Source: a virus | IMG/VR virus record: IMGVR_UViG_3300044998_000113 | Span: 1-30,575 of that record | DNA length: 30,575 nucleotides | Reading direction: 5' to 3' (one strand) | Part shown: piece after piece, positions 1,351-14,680 of the stretch | How positions within the stretch are numbered: the stretch's first letter is position 1 | Layout: each line of letters opens with the position of its first letter | Program-made: the position numbers and the translations under genes | Notes under the pieces: generated by a model | The model's input: the letters and a program-made list of their open reading frames with translations, nothing else | What the model was told of the DNA's origin: nothing | Database searches by the model: none

Positions 1351-1509
1351 TCACATTCTCACGATTGAAAGAAACGCGATTAAAAGCAGGGTCGAATAGA
1401 TCACAAATCCGACCACAGCGATAGCCACTTGGCCGATGTTGTTTGTTGGTTCGACGTCGCGTTGGCGCACGTGGTGAAGGGTGTGGTGAGCACGGGGTGA
1501 GTAACTCAC
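1351..1509 (-). CDS. 52-aa single-span membrane protein, copy 1 of a paralogous pair
   Basis: GTG start at 1509, stop TGA at 1351, 52 residues. A basic/polar N-terminus starting MSYSPRAHHT is followed by one strong membrane helix (QVAIAVVGFVIYSTLLLIAF) and a short tail SIVRM. It is clearly related to the 52-aa protein at 7664-7822: same length, same MSY start, and a matching helix pattern (V[VI]GF..Y.TL...A....R). GGAGGAGAATC before the GTG is the ribosome-binding site and also encodes the end of the upstream KLPPA peptide; stop and start overlap as GTGA. Possible roles include a holin/antiholin-like or exclusion protein; none is shown by the sequence. Confidence 0.78.
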   Translation of the reverse strand: MSYSPRAHHTLHHVRQRDVEPTNNIGQVAIAVVGFVIYSTLLLIAFLSIVRM

Positions 1510-1562
1510 GATTCTCCTCCGATCTCGTCATCGTCCTTCGCTGGGGGTAGTTTTCTGGTCAT
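1506..1562 (-). CDS. Candidate mini-peptide KLPPA..DDEIGGE, copy 1 (internal start)
   Basis: An internal ATG at 1562 with AAGGAG upstream would give the 18-residue peptide MTRKLPPAKDDDEIGGES, in frame with the 116-aa protein. The matching peptide at 7819-7878 is a separate reading frame with its own ribosome-binding site, and 12 of 14 aligned positions (KLPPA..DDEIGGE) are identical. The codons differ at synonymous positions (Leu CTA/TTG, Pro CCC/CCG and CCA/CCC), which points to selection on the peptide. Its stop overlaps the GTG of the 52-aa membrane protein. Whether it is made alone here, or only as the tail of the larger protein, is open. Confidence 0.45.
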   Translation of the reverse strand: MTRKLPPAKDDDEIGGES

Positions 1563-1856
1563 TGGTTGATTCTCCTTTTGACTCGCCAACAAGTACCAGG
1601 CCCCACGGGCCGCGTCTTTATGGCCTTCGATGTCTTGATTTGATTCGGCCTCGTCCATCGCGTCAAATTTCTCCCACACGGCTTGCCACTCGGCGTCGGG
1701 GTGGTCGGTGGCTCGCCAGACTAGGTAACGGTCCCAAACCTTAGTCACCACCTCGTCAATCGCCTCTTTCCAGTTGGCCTTCTCCGGCGTTTCCCCTGTG
1801 GGCGCAGTCCTTCCACGGCTCAACTCCTTAAGGAGTTGATTATAGTTGTTTTTCAT
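1506..1856 (-). CDS. Hypothetical acidic protein, 116 aa, ending in the KLPPA..DDEIGGE motif
   Basis: Starts at ATG 1856 behind a strong AGAAGGAGT ribosome-binding site. It is a soluble, Trp- and acid-rich protein (WDRYLVWRATDHPDAEWQAV; FDAMDEAESNQDIEG) with no family I recognise. Its last 18 residues (MTRKLPPAKDDDEIGGES) closely match a separately encoded peptide at 7819-7878 and have their own ribosome-binding site (AAGGAG about 9 bases before the internal ATG at 1562), so that peptide may also be made alone. It is the first gene after the iteron array. The first codons contain an 18-bp palindrome that could compete with the ribosome-binding site. Confidence 0.75.
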   Translation of the reverse strand: MKNNYNQLLKELSRGRTAPTGETPEKANWKEAIDEVVTKVWDRYLVWRATDHPDAEWQAVWEKFDAMDEAESNQDIEGHKDAARGAWYLLASQKENQPMTRKLPPAKDDDEIGGES

Positions 1857-2175: not shown

Positions 2176-4650
2176 TTAGCCACTTTTGGACCCTACCGGT
2201 TCGCGGGCGTGGAAGACCTCCACGGGCCAGCCACCGCTTTCATTCTTGTTTGTTTTGGTTAGACCCATACCACGCTCTACCATGTCGCTAATCAATTGCT
2301 TGGCCGCGCTACGGGTAGTCACGCCGGCCACCTTATGCCGCATCAGGTCCCGCACCGAAGCTGACCCACCATGAGCCAATACCCAGCGATAGGCGCGATC
2401 GGCTTGGTGGTCCGCTTTCTGGGCACCAATGGCGTGAAAGACTCGCCTGGCCCCCGACTTGAAATACTCCACTAAGGCCGCGCCAGCCGTCATGTCGAAC
2501 TCGTCGATGTCACTGCCGGCCACCTCATCGCACGCCCAGCGAATCCAGTGGATCACCAAGGCGAACCGGGCCATATAGCTTCGCAGCTTGCTCCACGGCG
2601 ATTTCCATTCGGTCGGGAATTCGCTGCTCGCCTGTTCGTCGGCGTGCTCGTTGTACCACCGCTCCCAGATCGCTTCGGCTCCGGGCGTCAGTCGGCAAAC
2701 GTAGGGCCTCAAATCTTCGCCATCCTGCATCATGGCCATCGACCAGAGCCGTTCCACGGTGGCCCGCCAATAGTGCCGGAGATGATCCGGGATGGCCACT
2801 TTTCGCCAATGAGCCGGTGGCGAAGTGTCCGGGTAGACCCAGACAAAGCGGTGGAGAAATCCATCCTCTCGCCCCTTGTCCTCGACCATCGCGGACAACA
2901 TATCCGGCTGGGTTCCACCCAAGATGGTAAGCCACGGCTTGGCGACGAATGATGGGATACTCCCCGCTTTCTTGCGGTCGCACAGGTGCGATTGATGACT
3001 CCACGCCGACAGGTAGAATTGCCGATCCGATCCTTTGCCCCCGGCCTTGTACTGATTTAGCCCCATCGTGAGCGAGCTTAGCTCGTCCTTGTACAAACCG
3101 ATCCCCCGTGGATTTTCGGCCAGCACGGCAGCCAGGGCTTCGACCGTGGTATCGGTGGTGACCAGCCGCATAAGCGGGGGCACGTCGGGCTTAGGGGGGA
3201 TCGTCCCACCTGATTTGACGGCTTGGCGTTTCTCCATTTCCCAGCGTTCCACTTCGGCCTCGGCATGGCGTTTAGCCGCTTCCCAGGCCTTGTGGGCTTC
3301 GCGCTGGATCGCAAACACGGGGGCCATGATGGCCTGTAATACGGGTGACTTGCCGGACCCCGGATCACCGACAATCGCCATATAGATCGCTGACGATTCG
3401 TGCCATTCGTGGGTGATAGCGATGGTCTTGGTGTAGCCCATCGCCATTGCCGCCACGGCCAGCATGGGCCCCGCGACGAACTCCACGGGTGCCGACGCCG
3501 CGTCAGCCATTGACATAGCCAGGTCACGCAGCGATGATGGCAGCGCATCCAGGGGGAATTCACCGGGGTGATAGACCACGGGCGGCGGTAGTTCATCCTC
3601 GTCCAGAATCGGCGTTACCGTAGGTGCGGGCCGTTCGTTGAGCAGGTAGCCACGGTTGACTGCCTTCTTCTCGGCGTCCTCCAGTTTGTGTAGCAGCTCC
3701 TTCTCGCTCCACGGTGGCGAGCACTTCGCGGAGTATTCGCGCATCAGAGGCAAAGCCTCCTCCTTGGTGAGCGCGAATCCCTCAAGCAAAATGCACGCCG
3801 CGCGGAAGCAGGGTATTGACCCGCCCTGCCCAGAAATCCCTGGGTCAACCTTGTCTAGGTAGGCGCGTGCTCGGGCAATCACATCGGGCGTGGTCTTGCC
3901 GGTGGCGGCGGTGGGGCGTTGTTCGATCATTCGCTGGATCGCTGCCCATCCGGCGATCGCGGCGTTAGCTTCTCCTTGGGTCACCGAAATAATTTGGCTG
4001 CGTCGGTGTGGCCGCTCGTCCGTGGCAATTCCTTTGCGCGACAAGGTGCCGTAGAGCTTCCAGATTCGCGCCGCGTTGTAAATGCTCGTGTCGATCCCAA
4101 CTGCTGGAGTACCGTAGGTCTTCGCCAGCCGAGTCAGAAACGTCTTGAGCGTGGACTTCGTTTCTTCGTTGTTTTCTGCGTCAATCCGGTAGCACAGGTG
4201 CCACCCGTTACCGGAATCGGCCACTACCTCGGTAGTCGCCCCTAGAATCTGCCGCACGCCAGCGCGGCACGTCTCCATCACTTGGCGGGCGGTTTCCTTT
4301 TCGTCATCGGTCGATGACACCTTGGCCGGGCGGCGCGGGTCAAAGTCGATCAGAAGCCACCGCCGGGCCGTAATGTCGTCGTCCTTGGTCAGGGCGTGTT
4401 GGGGTCGGCGGGTGAGCTTGTCCGCCGAACGTCGGTGAAGCGACTGGCTTACCGGGTTCGGCGTGAAATAGCAGCCCATCGCGGATGATTCGGCCTGGAT
4501 CGCTGCCGTGGCTAAGCGGTCCAGGGAATGCCTCGAAAAGAACCCCGACGACACCTCATGGTCCGGGTGAAGGATGCGCAGCTCGGTGAATTGGTCCTCA
4601 CCGAGGAACACCTGCAACCCGTTGATGATGGTGTCGGCGTGGTTCGTCAT
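2176..4650 (-). CDS. Replicative primase-helicase (AEP-like N-terminus, DUF3987-like ATPase)
   Basis: An 824-aa protein likely to prime and unwind DNA at the phage fork. The N-terminal third has features of an archaeo-eukaryotic primase/PrimPol fold: RWLLIDFDPR (metal acidic pair, Asp102 and Asp104), DSGNGWHL (145-152), and IDTSIYNAARIWKLYGT (187-202). A middle helical stretch (about 255-340) resembles the C-terminal part of such primases. The C-terminal half is a DUF3987/YfjI-type P-loop ATPase with Walker A GDPGSGKSP (428-436), Walker B GIGLYKDE (516-523), and ILGGTQPD near 576-583 as a likely sensor. The ATG at 4650 follows the SSB-like gene's stop by 2 bases, and the iteron array lies immediately downstream. 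Domain assignments are from motifs; activity is inferred. Confidence 0.87.
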   Translation of the reverse strand: MTNHADTIINGLQVFLGEDQFTELRILHPDHEVSSGFFSRHSLDRLATAAIQAESSAMGCYFTPNPVSQSLHRRSADKLTRRPQHALTKDDDITARRWLLIDFDPRRPAKVSSTDDEKETARQVMETCRAGVRQILGATTEVVADSGNGWHLCYRIDAENNEETKSTLKTFLTRLAKTYGTPAVGIDTSIYNAARIWKLYGTLSRKGIATDERPHRRSQIISVTQGEANAAIAGWAAIQRMIEQRPTAATGKTTPDVIARARAYLDKVDPGISGQGGSIPCFRAACILLEGFALTKEEALPLMREYSAKCSPPWSEKELLHKLEDAEKKAVNRGYLLNERPAPTVTPILDEDELPPPVVYHPGEFPLDALPSSLRDLAMSMADAASAPVEFVAGPMLAVAAMAMGYTKTIAITHEWHESSAIYMAIVGDPGSGKSPVLQAIMAPVFAIQREAHKAWEAAKRHAEAEVERWEMEKRQAVKSGGTIPPKPDVPPLMRLVTTDTTVEALAAVLAENPRGIGLYKDELSSLTMGLNQYKAGGKGSDRQFYLSAWSHQSHLCDRKKAGSIPSFVAKPWLTILGGTQPDMLSAMVEDKGREDGFLHRFVWVYPDTSPPAHWRKVAIPDHLRHYWRATVERLWSMAMMQDGEDLRPYVCRLTPGAEAIWERWYNEHADEQASSEFPTEWKSPWSKLRSYMARFALVIHWIRWACDEVAGSDIDEFDMTAGAALVEYFKSGARRVFHAIGAQKADHQADRAYRWVLAHGGSASVRDLMRHKVAGVTTRSAAKQLISDMVERGMGLTKTNKNESGGWPVEVFHAREPVGSKSG

Positions 4651-5298: not shown

Positions 5299-6177
5299 TC
5301 AATCACGGAATAACAGTTGCCACAAGGTATCGTCGCCGTCTGGATACGGCATGGGTTGGCCAATGGTCCGGCTCTTGGCCATGCACCACGGCAGTTCCAC
5401 CGGGTAAATCGTTCGCGTTCCACTGCCGATAGCGACACCATCGGCATTTACGCCCACGTCATAGCCGACGAAAAATAGATGGTCGCTCCACTCCTTGACG
5501 GCCAAGCGGATGGAGCTTTTTTGGCTGTTCGGGTGTTGGAGCTTCGGCTCCCAGCGCAGGTAGTCTTCCCCAGTTGGATTGGGGACTGTGTTCACAATAT
5601 CGTGGCAAATCACGATCACGTTCCGCCCGGCCTTGACGTGCGCGTCCAGGTCTGCCAACAGGAAAAGGAACGTGTCGTAGGTATGCTGGATGCCTTTGCC
5701 GAAGCCATAGTCCTCGATCCGGCTCACCCGATGGCCCTTTTCGTGGCGCACGTTCGCCACGGTCCAGTCCGTGGCCAACAGTTCCGCCCGGGACCCCGAA
5801 TCGATCACAATCGTTTGGCATTCACTCCAGATTGGCGCATGCAACGCCCCGCGAAGATCGTCCCAAGACTCGATCCCATCGACAGGGCGCACCATGTCGG
5901 CCACGCCATGCTCTTTGAGCCGGTCTTGCAACAGGCCCAGCGTATTTTCCATATCGACGTACCCGATGGGTCGTCGCTTCCGCGCGGCCAAACAAGCCAG
6001 CGTGGACTTGCCAATTCCGCCCGTGCCATAGATCACAATCCGTTGGGCATCAGCGGGCTTGATCCGGCCAAGGCTGTATTGCTTGGTCGTGGTGGTGGCC
6101 CCATTCGCCTTCGCGGGGAGCGGTGGCGGTGGTTTGCTCATCTTCGGTGGTGGTGGGGGCAGTCGGGTTTCAGTCAT
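5299..6177 (-). CDS. Sak4-like RecA-family recombinase (AAA_24 ATPase)
   Basis: A 292-aa RecA-fold ATPase. A Pro-rich N-terminus (about 1-28) precedes Walker A GTGGIGKST (51-59), an acidic GYVDMENTL (72-80), and Walker B TIVIDSGSR (122-130). NVIVICHDIV resembles the sensor strand of phage NTPases annotated as AAA_24. Members with this size and position are Sak4-type recombinases that promote annealing or strand exchange together with SSB. The SSB-like gene follows after 22 bases and a PD-(D/E)XK nuclease precedes it, completing a recombination set. ATG at 6177 follows AAAGGAG; an internal ATG at residue 13 is less likely. ATPase fold is confident; the Sak4 role rests on context. Confidence 0.8.
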   Translation of the reverse strand: MTETRLPPPPPKMSKPPPPLPAKANGATTTTKQYSLGRIKPADAQRIVIYGTGGIGKSTLACLAARKRRPIGYVDMENTLGLLQDRLKEHGVADMVRPVDGIESWDDLRGALHAPIWSECQTIVIDSGSRAELLATDWTVANVRHEKGHRVSRIEDYGFGKGIQHTYDTFLFLLADLDAHVKAGRNVIVICHDIVNTVPNPTGEDYLRWEPKLQHPNSQKSSIRLAVKEWSDHLFFVGYDVGVNADGVAIGSGTRTIYPVELPWCMAKSRTIGQPMPYPDGDDTLWQLLFRD

Positions 6178-7422: not shown

Positions 7423-7626
7423 CTATCCTCCGCTACGACGTGGCCCTGTGACGCTGGCCGAAGCGACAATCGGCCAATCAGTGGCATCCCCCAGCACGTC
7501 GTTACCGGTCTCGTATCCGACGTGCCACATACATTCCAGCAGGCCGACGGCATAGGCCTCAGGGATGCCTAATTCGTGGACGAGCCGCCGAAATTTGGGA
7601 TGCGTGAGCAGTGATGGCTTGGCCAT
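7423..7626 (-). pseudogene. Truncated replication-like protein (N-terminal fragment)
   Basis: Starts at ATG 7626 with a GAGGT ribosome-binding site. The first ~50 residues (MAKPSLLTHPKFRRLVHELG; LLECMWHVGYETGNDVLGDA) look like the start of a phage protein family that I remember as 150-300 aa long, often annotated as DnaD- or replication-like, continuing as a basic, wHTH-type protein. Here the frame drifts after VLGDATDWP into ASVTGPRRSGG and stops at 67 aa, and no matching continuation is visible in the next 270 bases in any frame. I read it as a 3'-truncated gene, though a genuinely short protein cannot be excluded. Confidence 0.55.
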
Positions 7627-7663: not shown

Positions 7664-7822
7664 TCAGAGACACCTAATCATTGCGACATACGCCAATATC
7701 ATCAGGGTCGCATATAGAGCAAACCCAATGACCGCGACGACAGCCGTGGTATATTTGTCCCGCGACGCGAGCACGCTCTCACGGCGCCGCGCGTAATATC
7801 CTGAGCGAGTGCAGTAGCTCAT
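7664..7822 (-). CDS. 52-aa single-span membrane protein, copy 2 of a paralogous pair
   Basis: ATG at 7822, stop TGA at 7664, 52 residues. A basic N-terminus (MSYCTRSGYYARRRESVLAS) precedes a membrane helix (AVVAVIGFALYATLMILAYV) and the tail AMIRCL. It has the same length and pattern as the protein at 1351-1509. GGAGGGGAGGG is the ribosome-binding site and also encodes the end of the KLPPA peptide upstream, whose TGA overlaps this ATG (ATGA). The arginine-rich N-terminus predicts a cytoplasmic N-terminus. Function is unknown; a role at the host membrane is the only safe inference. Confidence 0.8.
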   Translation of the reverse strand: MSYCTRSGYYARRRESVLASRDKYTTAVVAVIGFALYATLMILAYVAMIRCL

Positions 7823-7878
7823 CCCTCCCCTCCGATCTCGTCGTCTGGTTCCGCGGGCGGCAATTTTCCCATACTCAT
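7819..7878 (-). CDS. Mini-peptide KLPPA..DDEIGGE, copy 2 (separate frame)
   Basis: A 19-residue reading frame (MSMGKLPPAEPDDEIGGEG). It starts at ATG 7878, where ATGA overlaps the stop of the tandem-repeat frame, and AAGGAG stands about 10 bases upstream. It ends by overlapping the ATG of the 52-aa membrane protein. It matches the end of the 116-aa protein at 1506 in KLPPA..DDEIGGE, with synonymous codon changes between the copies. An acidic, Pro-containing leader could couple translation, bind the membrane protein, or both. The last residues are partly dictated by the embedded Shine-Dalgarno sequence. Confidence 0.55.
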   Translation of the reverse strand: MSMGKLPPAEPDDEIGGEG

Positions 7879-8433
7879 CGTCGTCGGTCTCCTTGTTTGG
7901 CCGTCGTATGCAGGTCGAGGCAGTGGCGGCGCAGCCATGCTGCCCACTTGGGCGACTGGCAGGCTGCCTGCTCGGCCTGCCTCTGGACCTTTGGCGCCAG
8001 CAGGTCGCTGCACCAGCGGCGCAGCCAGGCTGCCCACGCTGGCGATTGGAATGCCACCTGCTCGGCATGCCGCTGGACTTCCGGCGACAGATCGCGGCAG
8101 TAGCGCCGCAGCCAGGCCGCCCACCGCGGGTCCTGACAGGCCACCTGCTCGGCCTGCCGCGCGATGGACTCAGGCAGGTCGCTGCACCCGCTGCGCAGCA
8201 ACGCTGCCCCAGCAGGCGACTGGCAGGCGACCTGTTCCGCCTGCCGCTGCCGCTGCCGTTAGCACGATCGAGTCGTCCACGATGGCCTGCGGCACGGGCG
8301 TGCCGCCCAGCTGGCCACCGATTACCCATCTGGCGTGCTGGTCGGGCTCAGGCCCCTCCGCCAGAAATACGGGGGCATCGGTGCCCGCCAGGGTGGCGAG
8401 GGTTTGCCAAGCTAAAACGGTGGTTTTTTTCAT
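7875..8433 (-). pseudogene. Tandem-repeat protein interrupted by a frame change
   Basis: Two overlapping frames seem to be halves of one protein. The upstream part starts at ATG 8433 (MKKTTVLAWQTLATLAGTDA) behind AAGGA and is sensible to about IVDDSIVLTAAAAA. From about 8258 the sense passes to the +1 frame, which has no start codon of its own before a TTG at 8201. It carries four repeats of 29-30 residues with consensus QAEQVACQSPxWAAWLRRxCxDL, and it ends GDRRR at 7875. The switch lies in a CGGCAG-repeat tract (8242-8260), a likely slippage spot. It may be a frameshift mutation, a sequencing slip, or recoding. The repeats suggest a helical scaffold; no function is known. Confidence 0.6.
7911..8258. 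repeat. Four tandem DNA repeats of 87-90 bp
   Basis: Repeat units begin with CAGRTCGC-like sequence at 7911, 8001, 8088 and 8175 (spacing 90, 87, 87). They share GCGCAGCCAGGCTGCCCA and CACCTGCTCGGC blocks. All spacings are multiples of three, so the array keeps one frame and encodes the QAEQVACQ...WAAWLRR repeat. The units differ by many point changes, so this is an old protein-coding repeat and not a CRISPR or recent amplification. Confidence 0.8.
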
Positions 8434-8728: not shown

Positions 8729-8784
8729 CTTCTCGATTCCTTTTGCGGGGTTCGTCGAAAGGCTCATTTGCTCTCGACACTATA

Positions 8785-8827: not shown

Positions 8828-9040
8828 TTATTCCGAAATCTTTTCCGCCCCCAAAAGCTGACCAAGAGTACACCTAAGCGCACGGGTCAACGCCAACATC
8901 GTGTCGGCCTGGACGCGCAACATATCGCGGGTCCCGGATTCCCATTCGCTTATCCGATGTTGTCTGACGCCAACCATGTCGGCTAGGGCACTTTGCGAAT
9001 ACCCCCGTGATTCGCGAAGCTTGCGGAGTTGGTTTTTCAT
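8828..9040 (-). CDS. Xre-family repressor (HTH_3)
   Basis: A 70-aa single-domain lambda-repressor-like HTH protein. KLRESRGYSQSALADMVGV (helices 1-2) and RQHRISEWESGTRDM (recognition helix 3 and helix 4) match the Xre pattern, followed by LALTRALRCTLGQLLG. No C-terminal dimerisation or protease domain is present. The start at 9040 (MKNQLRKL) has GAGGA five bases upstream; the much longer open frame runs back through the promoter into the preceding gene and is rejected. Promoters with related operators lie on both sides (9074-9102 and 8785-8813), so autoregulation and control of the leftward early genes are likely. Confidence 0.9.
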   Translation of the reverse strand: MKNQLRKLRESRGYSQSALADMVGVRQHRISEWESGTRDMLRVQADTMLALTRALRCTLGQLLGAEKISE

Positions 9041-11533: not shown

Positions 11534-11845
11534 CTAGTCCACTGCGACAAACGCGACGCCCGCCGGAGATGGTGCGGGCAGTGACTCCATCACCTCCACC
11601 TCGATGCTCGCCGTCTCGGATCGCCCGCCCATGTCACTCCACGCGCCATGCACGGTGGTGCGGCCAGCAGCCAGGCCATGCAGCTCGACGCGATTGCCGG
11701 TGATCGTCATCGTGACCACTCCATCTGGCTCAGCCAGAGCGGCGAGAGTGCCCGGCGGCAGCGGCTCAGTGTATTCGCCTCGGCCCTGCCGCATCCGCTG
11801 CACTAGATCTACCGTCTTGGTCTCGCCGACGAGAATACGGATCAT
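11534..11845 (-). CDS. Small Ig-like (Big_2-type) domain protein
   Basis: A 103-aa beta-rich protein. Alternating strands and ITGNRVELHGLAAGRTTVHG resemble bacterial Ig-like Big_2 domains (the G..V.GLAAG.ttV pattern) found in phage surface and tail proteins. No signal peptide is visible. Its ATG overlaps the stop of the preceding membrane-protein gene (ATGA), and it is the last gene before the terminator at 11468-11505. Likely a decoration or adhesion domain on the virion or cell surface; this is inference from the domain pattern alone. Confidence 0.6.
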   Translation of the reverse strand: MIRILVGETKTVDLVQRMRQGRGEYTEPLPPGTLAALAEPDGVVTMTITGNRVELHGLAAGRTTVHGAWSDMGGRSETASIEVEVMESLPAPSPAGVAFVAVD

Positions 11846-12321
11846 TTGGCCACCTCCTGGAACTGCACGCTGGATTGGCCCGCCCGTTTGGCGGCGAGCT
11901 TGGTCTCCACGCGAAACTGGAAATCGGCGGCGGCTTCGGCCACGTCGTCGTTAACGATTTCGGTGGCGGCCGCGAGCGCCCGATCCACCGTCAGTCGCTC
12001 GCGCCGGGCACGGATCATGCTGTTGAGCGTCGCGTAATCGGCGGGGAGCACGGGCGCAGATGTTGGCGCGCTGTCGCCGGCAGTATGTGCCGCTGGTTCT
12101 GGTGCCGATGCCGATGGCGGCGATGGCGCTGGCTGCCATATTTTGGCGATCCATCCATGCCGCCACGCCGCGACAATCGCCGCCCCGATCAATGCGAGCA
12201 CGGCCAGACCCAGCCATCCGCCTGGCACCTGACCCGATCGTATCGCGAGGTCCGCAGCCATCCACGCGGATTGGGCCGCGGTCTCGATAGGCTGCTGTTG
12301 GTGCTGCGCGAACAATATCAT
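11842..12321 (-). CDS. Membrane protein with Pro/Ala-rich linker and helical C-terminus
   Basis: A 159-aa protein. One transmembrane helix (GGWLGLAVLALIGAAIVAAW, about 34-53) follows a 33-residue N-terminal segment; then comes a Pro/Ser/Ala linker (APSPPSASAPEPAAHTAGDS) and a charged helical region that could be a coiled coil (MIRARRERLTVDRALAAATE). It overlaps genes on both sides by 4 bases. It belongs to the run of exported or membrane proteins from 14.7 to 11.8 kb. A spanin-like bridge or membrane anchor is conceivable; the family is not recognised. Confidence 0.7.
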   Translation of the reverse strand: MILFAQHQQQPIETAAQSAWMAADLAIRSGQVPGGWLGLAVLALIGAAIVAAWRHGWIAKIWQPAPSPPSASAPEPAAHTAGDSAPTSAPVLPADYATLNSMIRARRERLTVDRALAAATEIVNDDVAEAAADFQFRVETKLAAKRAGQSSVQFQEVAK

Positions 12322-13226
12322 CGCCGTGACCCTCCACGGAATGCGATCAGGAGCAGCACGCCGGCCAGCGCAAATACCGCACCGGGCAGTAGCCAGTTGC
12401 CGTTGCCCGAGTCAGCGGCATGATTCGGTACGCGCGACCGGTCGAAATGTGGATTGGGTTTGCGCACCACGCCAACCGCCGCCTCCATATTAGCTCGGAG
12501 GTCTTCCGGCCGATCACATGCCCATAGTGCAGTGCCGTCCATCGAGGAACGGAATGCCATCGCGGTAAATGGCCCCTGGCAGTCGTAGCGCATCTCCGGC
12601 GCCAAGAACCACTCATCGCCCCGGTAGTAGGTGATGGTGTAGTCCGCAGCCAGGTCTTTGAGCGGGCCATCAAGTAGACTCATCGCTCGCTTGCGGGTGG
12701 CCTCGTCCCGGGCGCATATCATCAGGCGCGGGCGTTGGGCTTGCGCTGCGAGCGTCCCGCGCAGCAGGTCGCGTAGCTCGCCCTGCGTGATGGGGCCATC
12801 CCGGCCCGTGATGAGCGTGTCGAATCCCGGTGGCATCGGATGCGCGTCGAGATCGACGCCGTAGTTTTTGCGCGGCGCGGGCGCGGTCGATGTCACCTGG
12901 GTTTTCTCGTCGCCGTGCGCGACGAGCATATTTCCCGCCGGCATTGGCCGGGCCGCCGGAGGAATGTAGCCCACCGGTGGCGCGGCCGGTAGCTCACTCG
13001 GAGTGGCCTCCCACTGACCGGGACCCGTGCGACGATAGTATCCCTCCCCGGACACCAGATTGCCCGCCTGCACGCCGCCGACGATCCACGCCCATTGATC
13101 TCCCGTGCGCACCCAATGAGCTACGGGGGTCACTGGCGTAGGCCACGATGGAGATGGAGTCGGTGCCGGGCAGCGACCGTCCGCACGCTGGCACACTAGC
13201 GCCGCCATCAGGAGGAGCGCGCACAT
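12318..13226 (-). CDS. Exported protein, 302 aa, with C-terminal membrane anchor
   Basis: The N-terminus (MCALLLMAALVCQRADGRCP) looks like a short signal or lipoprotein-type signal peptide. A Pro-rich stretch and a W/Y-rich repeat-like region (WAWIVGGVQ; EGYYRRTGPGQWE) follow, then a central domain with NYGVDLDAHPMPPGFDTLI and RPRLMICARDEATRKRAMSL, and a C-terminal helix (NWLLPGAVFALAGVLLLIAF) ending in GGSRR, a stop-transfer pattern. From memory, proteins with a NYGVD-type motif sit beside the same cysteine-peptidase family in planctomycete prophages; that link is not verified here. GAGGTG precedes ATG 13226. It probably works with the peptidase just upstream. Confidence 0.72.
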   Translation of the reverse strand: MCALLLMAALVCQRADGRCPAPTPSPSWPTPVTPVAHWVRTGDQWAWIVGGVQAGNLVSGEGYYRRTGPGQWEATPSELPAAPPVGYIPPAARPMPAGNMLVAHGDEKTQVTSTAPAPRKNYGVDLDAHPMPPGFDTLITGRDGPITQGELRDLLRGTLAAQAQRPRLMICARDEATRKRAMSLLDGPLKDLAADYTITYYRGDEWFLAPEMRYDCQGPFTAMAFRSSMDGTALWACDRPEDLRANMEAAVGVVRKPNPHFDRSRVPNHAADSGNGNWLLPGAVFALAGVLLLIAFRGGSRR

Positions 13227-13235
13227 GATGTCACC

Positions 13236-13913
13236 TCACTCGTTGCTCGGGACCGGCGGCGGTCCGGGACGCGGGAAAAATATGGCCCATGCCTGCCCTG
13301 CACCATAGACGGAGTCCACGAAAGCTGCCTCATTCATCCATTCGATGGATTTTGGGAAGTTGTTGTCGAGAATCGCCCACAGCTTGCGCGGCCCGGAGCG
13401 TGCGGCCACGCAATTGACCATGTGGGCAATGCGCTGTCCACCGTATCGCCCAGTCGGCGAGTGGGAGTACGTGACGCACACGAGGTGCCCAGCCTGCACG
13501 GCTTCCGCGAGCAGCTCGACGAGCTGCCGATCTCGGCTCCGGTCTTGCGCCTGGTAATAGTCGGGCACGTCACCATGCTTGCGGCAAAATTGCGCTAGCA
13601 TGTGGCTCACTTTCTCGGGATACCCGCCACCTGGCTGGGTGGTCATCCACGCTTGCAGGCCGTCTAGCTCCGGGATTGCGTGCCACCGTCCGCTATGCTC
13701 AATGGAGGTGAATACACAGAGGCCAGCACCATCGCGGCCACCCGTGTTTTTCATGTGCAGTGTGGCCGGTAGGTCGCACTGCACTTCCGTCCCGTCATCG
13801 AGTCGCGGCCCAGCGACGACGGCGAAACCCGCCGCCGTCATACGCGAGTCTGCCGGCGACAGGCTCGTGACGAATACAAGCGTAAGGGCCAGAGTCAGAG
13901 CGCGGATAATCAT
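13236..13913 (-). CDS. Exported papain-like cysteine peptidase (lysis candidate)
   Basis: A 225-aa protein. MIIRALTLALTLVFVTSLSP is a clear signal peptide. The mature part has the cysteine-peptidase order: GAGLCVFTSIEHSGRW (nucleophile Cys), RIAHMVNCVAARSG (His), and WAILDNNFPKSIEWM (Asp/Asn). ATTQPGGGYPEKV-like sequence lies between (MTTQPGGGYPEKVSHMLAQF). The fold is the C39/NlpC-P60-like papain group, which includes cell-wall peptidases. The start at 13913 overlaps the preceding membrane-protein gene; a longer frame from 14201 is an out-of-frame reading of that gene. Best candidate here for the cell-wall lytic enzyme, since no muramidase or amidase is visible. The triad is seen; the lytic role is inferred. 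Confidence 0.78.
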   Translation of the reverse strand: MIIRALTLALTLVFVTSLSPADSRMTAAGFAVVAGPRLDDGTEVQCDLPATLHMKNTGGRDGAGLCVFTSIEHSGRWHAIPELDGLQAWMTTQPGGGYPEKVSHMLAQFCRKHGDVPDYYQAQDRSRDRQLVELLAEAVQAGHLVCVTYSHSPTGRYGGQRIAHMVNCVAARSGPRKLWAILDNNFPKSIEWMNEAAFVDSVYGAGQAWAIFFPRPGPPPVPSNE

Positions 13914-14137
13914 GGAGCGTCCCTCCGCGTGAGATACCGATACCCGATCATCAGCACGGCCACCGCCAGAAACGTGAGCGGCAGCCACCACGCCGCGAAT
14001 AGCCAGGCCACCGGGGCAGACAGGATGAGTAGCACGAGCACCAGCGCGAATAGCACGCCCCAGAGCGTGCCGGTGATGATCCGCCAGAGTGCGGCCGGGG
14101 CCGCAAGGATCGTGGACCAGACGGCGGGCCAGTTCAT
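13910..14137 (-). CDS. Small two-span membrane protein, holin-like
   Basis: A 75-aa protein (MNWPAVWSTILAAPAALWRI onward) with two hydrophobic segments (WGVLFALVLVLLILSAPVAW and LPLTFLAVAVLMIGYRY) and a short basic tail YLTRRDAP. Size, topology and place directly before the exported peptidase fit a holin. ATG 14137 has GGGGGTG upstream and overlaps the stop of the previous gene; its own stop overlaps the peptidase start. No family match is claimed. Confidence 0.72.
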   Translation of the reverse strand: MNWPAVWSTILAAPAALWRIITGTLWGVLFALVLVLLILSAPVAWLFAAWWLPLTFLAVAVLMIGYRYLTRRDAP

Positions 14138-14658
14138 CGCGCACCCCCATTTGCCGCCAGCCTGCGCACGGCCGCGACAAGCAGCAGCATCGTGATACCA
14201 TGCACGCCAGCTACGCCCATGAGACCCCACCAGAGCCACGTAGCGTAGACGCCAAATATGGAGAAATTTAGGTTCAGATCAAATAAACCCTCGACTTTGC
14301 GGCGATTCGCGCGCAGCCATCGGAGGTCATCATCAAATAGACCAGGTGGATCGCTGGGCTTTGCACGCCGGCGGTCATCGACCTCGACCTGGATGGGGTG
14401 GGCACTGGTCTGGAGCCAATAGCCATTGCCGAGACGGGCGCTGTCCAGGCCGGGTAATCGCTCTGGCGCCGTGCCGCACATGCAATCAGTACAGGTGCAG
14501 TCCACGCATGCGCATACCGGGGAGCGGATAGGGCGTGGCGGCCCGGCCCACCTCGATGGCGCGCACACTACCGCCATAATCGTCATCAACAGCACGATGT
14601 TGCTGCCGCACCCGATGATGGTCGCGCCGATGCTGCGCTGCTCTTGCTGCTGCGACAT
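14134..14658 (-). CDS. Membrane protein with a CxCxxC cysteine cluster
   Basis: A 174-aa protein. The N-terminal transmembrane helix (IIGCGSNIVLLMTIMAVVCA, about 14-33) is followed by a striking cluster CACVDCTCTDCMCG (Cys49, 51, 54, 56, 59, 61), a polar region with several DDR/RRR patches, and a C-terminal hydrophobic segment (about 138-165, FSIFGVYATWLWWGLMGVAG) ending NGGAR. The cysteines could bind metal or form disulfides outside the membrane. ATG 14658 is chosen because GGGAG is 7 bases upstream; another ATG two codons earlier is possible. Unknown function, within the export cluster. Confidence 0.7.
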   Translation of the reverse strand: MSQQQEQRSIGATIIGCGSNIVLLMTIMAVVCAPSRWAGPPRPIRSPVCACVDCTCTDCMCGTAPERLPGLDSARLGNGYWLQTSAHPIQVEVDDRRRAKPSDPPGLFDDDLRWLRANRRKVEGLFDLNLNFSIFGVYATWLWWGLMGVAGVHGITMLLLVAAVRRLAANGGAR

Positions 14659-14680
14659 GGCCATTCTCCCAGTTGGGCGG

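Follow-up and report, generated by a model that had tools for sequence, protein, structure and literature searches.

T4 Imm and similar superinfection-exclusion proteins are small membrane proteins encoded in the early region of phage genomes, and the Hok toxin carries its hydrophobic helix at the N-terminus. Gene pairs translated by termination-reinitiation share an exact ATGA or GTGA overlap, with the Shine-Dalgarno sequence of the second gene lying inside the first, and often encode subunits of one complex (PMC10666635, PMC6728339). Overlaps of 4 nt provide tight coupling, which is lost within about 20 nt, and genes for subunits of heteromeric complexes show an excess of such overlaps (PMC10666635). 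In the Hok/Mok-Sok system the 52-aa, one-helix membrane protein Hok has its translation tied to an upstream ORF and is present in multiple copies (PMC8309996). The locus described here resembles the termination-reinitiation pairs in its overlap and internal Shine-Dalgarno sequence, but its first gene specifies no more than 18-19 residues, and one phage carries the whole pair twice. With Hok/Mok-Sok it has in common the 52-aa one-helix protein, the tie to an upstream ORF and the multiple copies; in contrast, there is no sequence similarity, no antisense RNA is indicated at copy A, the helix is C-terminal, and the overlap with the upstream ORF is just 4 nt, that ORF showing conservation at the protein level. 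Imm-like exclusion proteins are likewise small early-region membrane proteins, but no sequence match was found in PHROGs or phage genomes, while the likeness to phage holins and antiholins is confined to small size and membrane location, the cassette lying outside a lysis cassette and having no family match.

The DNA analysed (the window) is a 30,575-base linear IMG/VR virus record. Its right part carries the TerL, TerS, portal, HK97-type capsid and tape-measure genes, and its left part is a minus-strand replication block encoding a PDDEXK nuclease, an AAA_24 ATPase, an SSB-like protein, a DUF3987 primase and a MazG-like protein. The two-part unit which the original prediction had placed at 1351-1562 and 7664-7878 was recovered at both positions, on the minus strand, which that prediction had not given (Table 1). 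The two copies, A and B, bracket the replication genes (PDDEXK, AAA_24, SSB-like and primase). No close relative of the phage was found in the collections searched, where the best TerL match was 50% identical and primase relatives showed 35-37% identity.

Table 1. Features of the two units and of the reading frames preceding them, in window positions.
Feature	Position	Strand	Remarks
Copy A acidic peptide MTRKLPPAKDDDEIGGES, 18 aa	1506..1562	-	ATG preceded by AAAAGGAG; TGA overlaps next start
Copy A 52-aa single-helix membrane protein	1351..1509	-	GTG start inside the peptide's GTGA overlap
116-aa ORF	1506..1856	-	Last 18 residues are peptide A
Copy B acidic peptide MSMGKLPPAEPDDEIGGEG, 19 aa	7819..7878	-	ATG overlaps repeat-ORF TGA; TGA overlaps membrane-protein ATG
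Copy B 52-aa single-helix membrane protein	7664..7822	-	ATG start
Tandem-repeat ORF, 29-30-aa repeats	7875..8201	-	Ends in ATGA overlap with peptide B
GACGAGATCGGAGG, copy A	1516..1529	-	Codes DEIGG; holds membrane-protein GGAGG; anti-SD duplex -9.5 kcal/mol
GACGAGATCGGAGG, copy B, identical to copy A	7829..7842	-	Anti-SD duplex -11.7 kcal/mol

The predicted lengths and overlaps of the acidic peptide and the membrane protein were confirmed in both copies. Each unit displays the geometry of an RTGA coupled pair, in which the peptide TGA overlaps the membrane-protein start, in the same direction, by 4 nt (GTGA in A, ATGA in B) and the Shine-Dalgarno sequence of the second gene lies in the first: the GGAGG for the membrane protein sits inside the IGG(E) codons of the peptide, a few nt upstream of each start. 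AAGGAG is found ahead of the peptide ATG at the right distance in both copies, and the Shine-Dalgarno duplexes at all four starts range from -8.5 to -11.7 kcal/mol. Both membrane proteins have, as proposed, one hydrophobic helix, located C-terminally, and the shared motif V[VI]GF..Y.TL...A....R; the common MSY start held literally for copy B (ATG, MSY...), while copy A begins with GTG (VSY..., read as M). An AlphaFold model of the copy A membrane protein gave a confident helix over residues 21-51, mostly with pLDDT above 90, and a loose N-terminal part. The net charge of the N-terminal part, by K/R/D/E count, is +1 in A and +4 in B.

Similarity between the copies is confined to the unit, with only short chance matches outside it; a tblastx segment upstream of the unit lies in a frame different from that of the 116-aa ORF and was taken as chance. 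The flanks are thus unrelated, as had been claimed, but the 116-aa protein is not the separate neighbour it was thought to be, since the frame of peptide A is open upstream to an ATG at 1856 and the peptide forms its end in frame. A low-confidence model of this ORF is helical to about residue 95, with a disordered tail. In copy B, by comparison, the repeat ORF that precedes the peptide (8201-7875) uses a different frame, and its TGA and the ATG of the peptide overlap; here the peptide is clearly free-standing. Peptide A may arise from an internal start, form a protein tail, or do both, and the AAGGAG preceding the peptide ATG in both copies argues that it is also made alone. Of the suggestion that the pair moves or is kept as a unit, the second half stood, the two parts having stayed together between unrelated flanks, and mobility was not supported, as no copy was found elsewhere in the collections searched. 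The repeat protein before copy B is split (8170-8433) into ORFs of 87 and 108 aa in different frames, which meet at a GGCAGC repeat near 8262; the frame change there is genuine or stems from an error in the sequence.

Both peptides contain KLPPAxxDDEIGGE, with 12 of the 14 residues identical. The corresponding codons differ at 12 nucleotides, seven of them silent and the other five confined to two codons; 6.4 unchanged residues would be expected, and none of 50,000 simulations with random placement of the differences reached 12. The same comparison gave P = 1.4e-4 for the first nine core codons, which lie upstream of the Shine-Dalgarno part, and 0.002 for KLPPA alone. For the core, dN was 0.12 with dS saturated, differences over 15 peptide codons were distributed 4/2/9 by codon position, and the peptide similarity was matched by none of 20,000 shuffles. 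As seven of the 12 core differences are silent, selection acts on the peptide as a protein, at least in part, and this silent-change pattern led us to reject a purely nucleotide-level conservation of the Shine-Dalgarno sequence for the KLPPA block. The conservation of GACGAGATCGGAGG is over-determined, because it also serves as the Shine-Dalgarno sequence of the next gene. Two diverged copies in one genome provide an internal comparison in which the peptide is seen to be kept as protein, with no related genomes needed, and on this sequence evidence we regard the duplicated coding micro-cassette as real.

The membrane-protein alignment scored 74 against a mean of 26 (sd 5) in region-preserving shuffles, none of 20,000 reaching 74. 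Residue identity in the helix is no higher than the nucleotide differences predict (nine observed, 8.4 expected), and the helix differences by codon position (10/3/13) spare only second positions, a pattern suggestive of conserved hydrophobicity. The helix may therefore have kept its hydrophobic character while its residues were free to diverge.

The unit has no relative in IMG/VR, 84,980 prokaryote genomes, 50,697 phage records, plasmids, Pfam, PHROGs, NCBIfam, PADLOC or the PDB, in keeping with the original view that it belongs to no described family (PHROGs, Pfam, NCBIfam and PADLOC). Degenerate DNA patterns spanning peptide, overlap and helix, run against IMG/VR and/or the 84,980 genomes, returned only chance matches, three inside unrelated genes and 16 in genomes without a coupled membrane ORF, and tblastn against phages and plasmids gave nothing beyond two Listeria-phage matches at E = 6. 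A profile of the two membrane proteins found no match in 43 virus records, while both window copies, as controls, scored E about 1e-33. Weak matches to AmoD in the PDB (E = 1.5) and to SecE (E = 0.075) were taken as generic helix matches, and no third diverged copy was found within the window.

Related phages were represented by 166 loci (1.88 Mb in all) fetched via primase, TerL and capsid, nearly all of them from phages linked to this one by such a gene, and the unit was absent from every one. A generic scan for a Shine-Dalgarno-led acidic ORF of 12-40 codons with an RTGA overlap to a Shine-Dalgarno-led one-helix ORF of 38-80 aa yielded exactly two units in the 30.6-kb window and none in the 1.88 Mb, figures that measure rarity rather than an unbiased probability, the scan having been defined after both units were seen; with the acidity and second Shine-Dalgarno conditions removed, there were eight matches. 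Recurrence in related genomes, which the original prediction had proposed as its check, was thus not found, which formally is the outcome that the prediction had named as refuting it. As the collections contain nothing closely related to the fragment, however, absence elsewhere is weak evidence against it, and with only 5 of the 166 loci sharing early genes with the window, and distantly, the outcome carries little force. Across the collections compared, which contain no true relative, the unit shows as lineage-specific; it may yet recur in such relatives.

The best reading of the locus is a translationally coupled cassette, specific to this lineage, that lies on both flanks of the replication genes and encodes a putative membrane effector together with an acidic partner or leader. 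From its layout we infer the following course of translation. Ribosomes would load at the AAGGAG of the peptide, make the 18-19-residue product, stop at the TGA of the RTGA overlap and reinitiate there, aided by the GGAGG in the IGG codons, to yield the 52-residue membrane protein with its one C-terminal helix, whose basic or neutral N-terminal part is probably cytoplasmic. Peptide and membrane protein would thereby be produced in constant proportion and, because the peptide is also kept as a protein, it may act on its companion or together with it, for instance through binding to the cytoplasmic part of the membrane protein; that the acidic peptide binds the basic N-terminal part is speculation. 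Their position on either side of the replication genes makes it plausible that the cassettes are expressed early and modify the membrane of the infected host, for instance to exclude superinfecting phages or to inhibit a complex in that membrane, and the two copies may have diverged towards different partners. We hold this explanation as a whole, that is, a coupled cassette whose peptide acts on or with the membrane protein in an early host-membrane role, with moderate confidence, mindful that the unit recurred nowhere in the collections searched and that in copy A the peptide may be present chiefly as the end of the 116-aa protein. Doubtful, though worth stating, is the wider proposition of a new phage micro-operon family, in which an 18-residue acidic peptide bearing the KLPPAxxDDEIGGE signature is produced at a constant ratio to a 52-residue membrane protein that it controls, the pair having been duplicated and diversified around the replication genes and one copy serving also as the tail of a soluble protein. 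Coding peptides of fewer than 20 residues are usually missed by gene finders, and if the peptide does control its membrane partner, the pair would rank among the smallest phage devices made of two proteins; until recurrence or activity appears, the cassette is of moderate interest.

The main rival takes the short ORF as a regulatory leader, the product of which has no partner and the conserved residues of which matter within the ribosome, setting the frequency of reinitiation at the membrane protein, for instance by slowing translation at the two prolines or along the acidic stretch. The extreme shortness of the ORF, the location of the second Shine-Dalgarno sequence inside it and the capacity of both conserved blocks to act co-translationally are consistent with such a leader. 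However, PPA is not known as one of the strongest motifs for stalling, no mRNA structure was demonstrated whose folding a paused ribosome could switch, and in copy A the sequence doubles as the tail of the 116-aa ORF. We consider a leader unlikely, and the reinitiation geometry together with the protein-level conservation of the peptide leads us to favour a partner or regulator made in fixed ratio.

The open frame of the whole 116-aa ORF, protein-like up to about residue 95, would also fit KLPPAxxDDEIGGE being the C-terminal tail motif of a soluble protein, copy B being a remnant in which only the tail is left as an ORF. This is improbable given that AAGGAG is suitably spaced from the peptide ATG in both copies and that, in B, an unrelated ORF in another frame ends exactly on that ATG. 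Slightly less probable again is a unit resembling type I toxins, in which translation of a membrane toxin shorter than 60 aa would depend on an upstream frame, as that of Hok does on Mok, and would be silenced by antisense RNA. Size, single helix, coupling to an upstream ORF and duplication all recall Hok, and copy B contains a promoter-like site on the plus strand (7728-7755), but inside or directly beside copy A there is no antisense promoter-like site, the nearest on the plus strand (1157-1185) lying about 170 nt past the 3' end, and the helix is at the wrong end of the protein for Hok. Nor was there an Rfam match or any similarity to a described toxin family in Pfam, NCBIfam or PADLOC, and the toxin-antitoxin role floated originally is left unsupported, no antisense-RNA antitoxin being indicated for copy A.

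A small holin or antiholin, also raised in the original prediction, would suit a small one-helix membrane protein in a phage none of whose genes is assigned to lysis, but it is disfavoured, and to our minds very improbable, as both copies lie among replication genes and not beside endolysin or spanin genes, other membrane proteins lie in the 11.8-14.7 kb region, and no holin family in PHROGs or Pfam was matched. The Hok-like and holin readings are both weaker than the leader. Decaying duplicated sequence without function, to which the lack of relatives and the weak residue constraint in the helix might point, is equally improbable in view of the silent-change pattern in the peptide and the intact ORFs, Shine-Dalgarno sequences and overlaps in both diverged copies.

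Several further features of the window were recorded. Small proteins that are secreted or membrane-bound and match no family are clustered at 11842-14661, a possible lysis region that includes a two-helix protein of 75 aa (14137-13910) and a 225-aa protein with an N-terminal hydrophobic stretch (13913-13236). The AAA_24 protein (5299-6177) has a proline-rich N-terminal start, MTETRLPPPPPKMSKPPPPLPAK, that partly resembles the KLPPA block. A 67-aa ORF at 7423-7626 resembles only the N-terminus of the replication-initiator family phrog_9474 (E = 0.018) and may be truncated, and a Cro/CI-type HTH regulator (8828-9040) lies directly upstream of the copy B operon. Between the primase and the copy A operon, AGTGTCGA occurs ten times at 1932-2172, five in each orientation, in an array whose two halves mirror each other about position 2054 (pair sums 4097-4102; chance about 7e-4) and which is possibly a replication origin or an operator array. 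The sole further copy in the window, where about one stray copy is expected by chance, is at 8774-8781 and adjoins a promoter-like site (8813-8785) ahead of the copy B operon.
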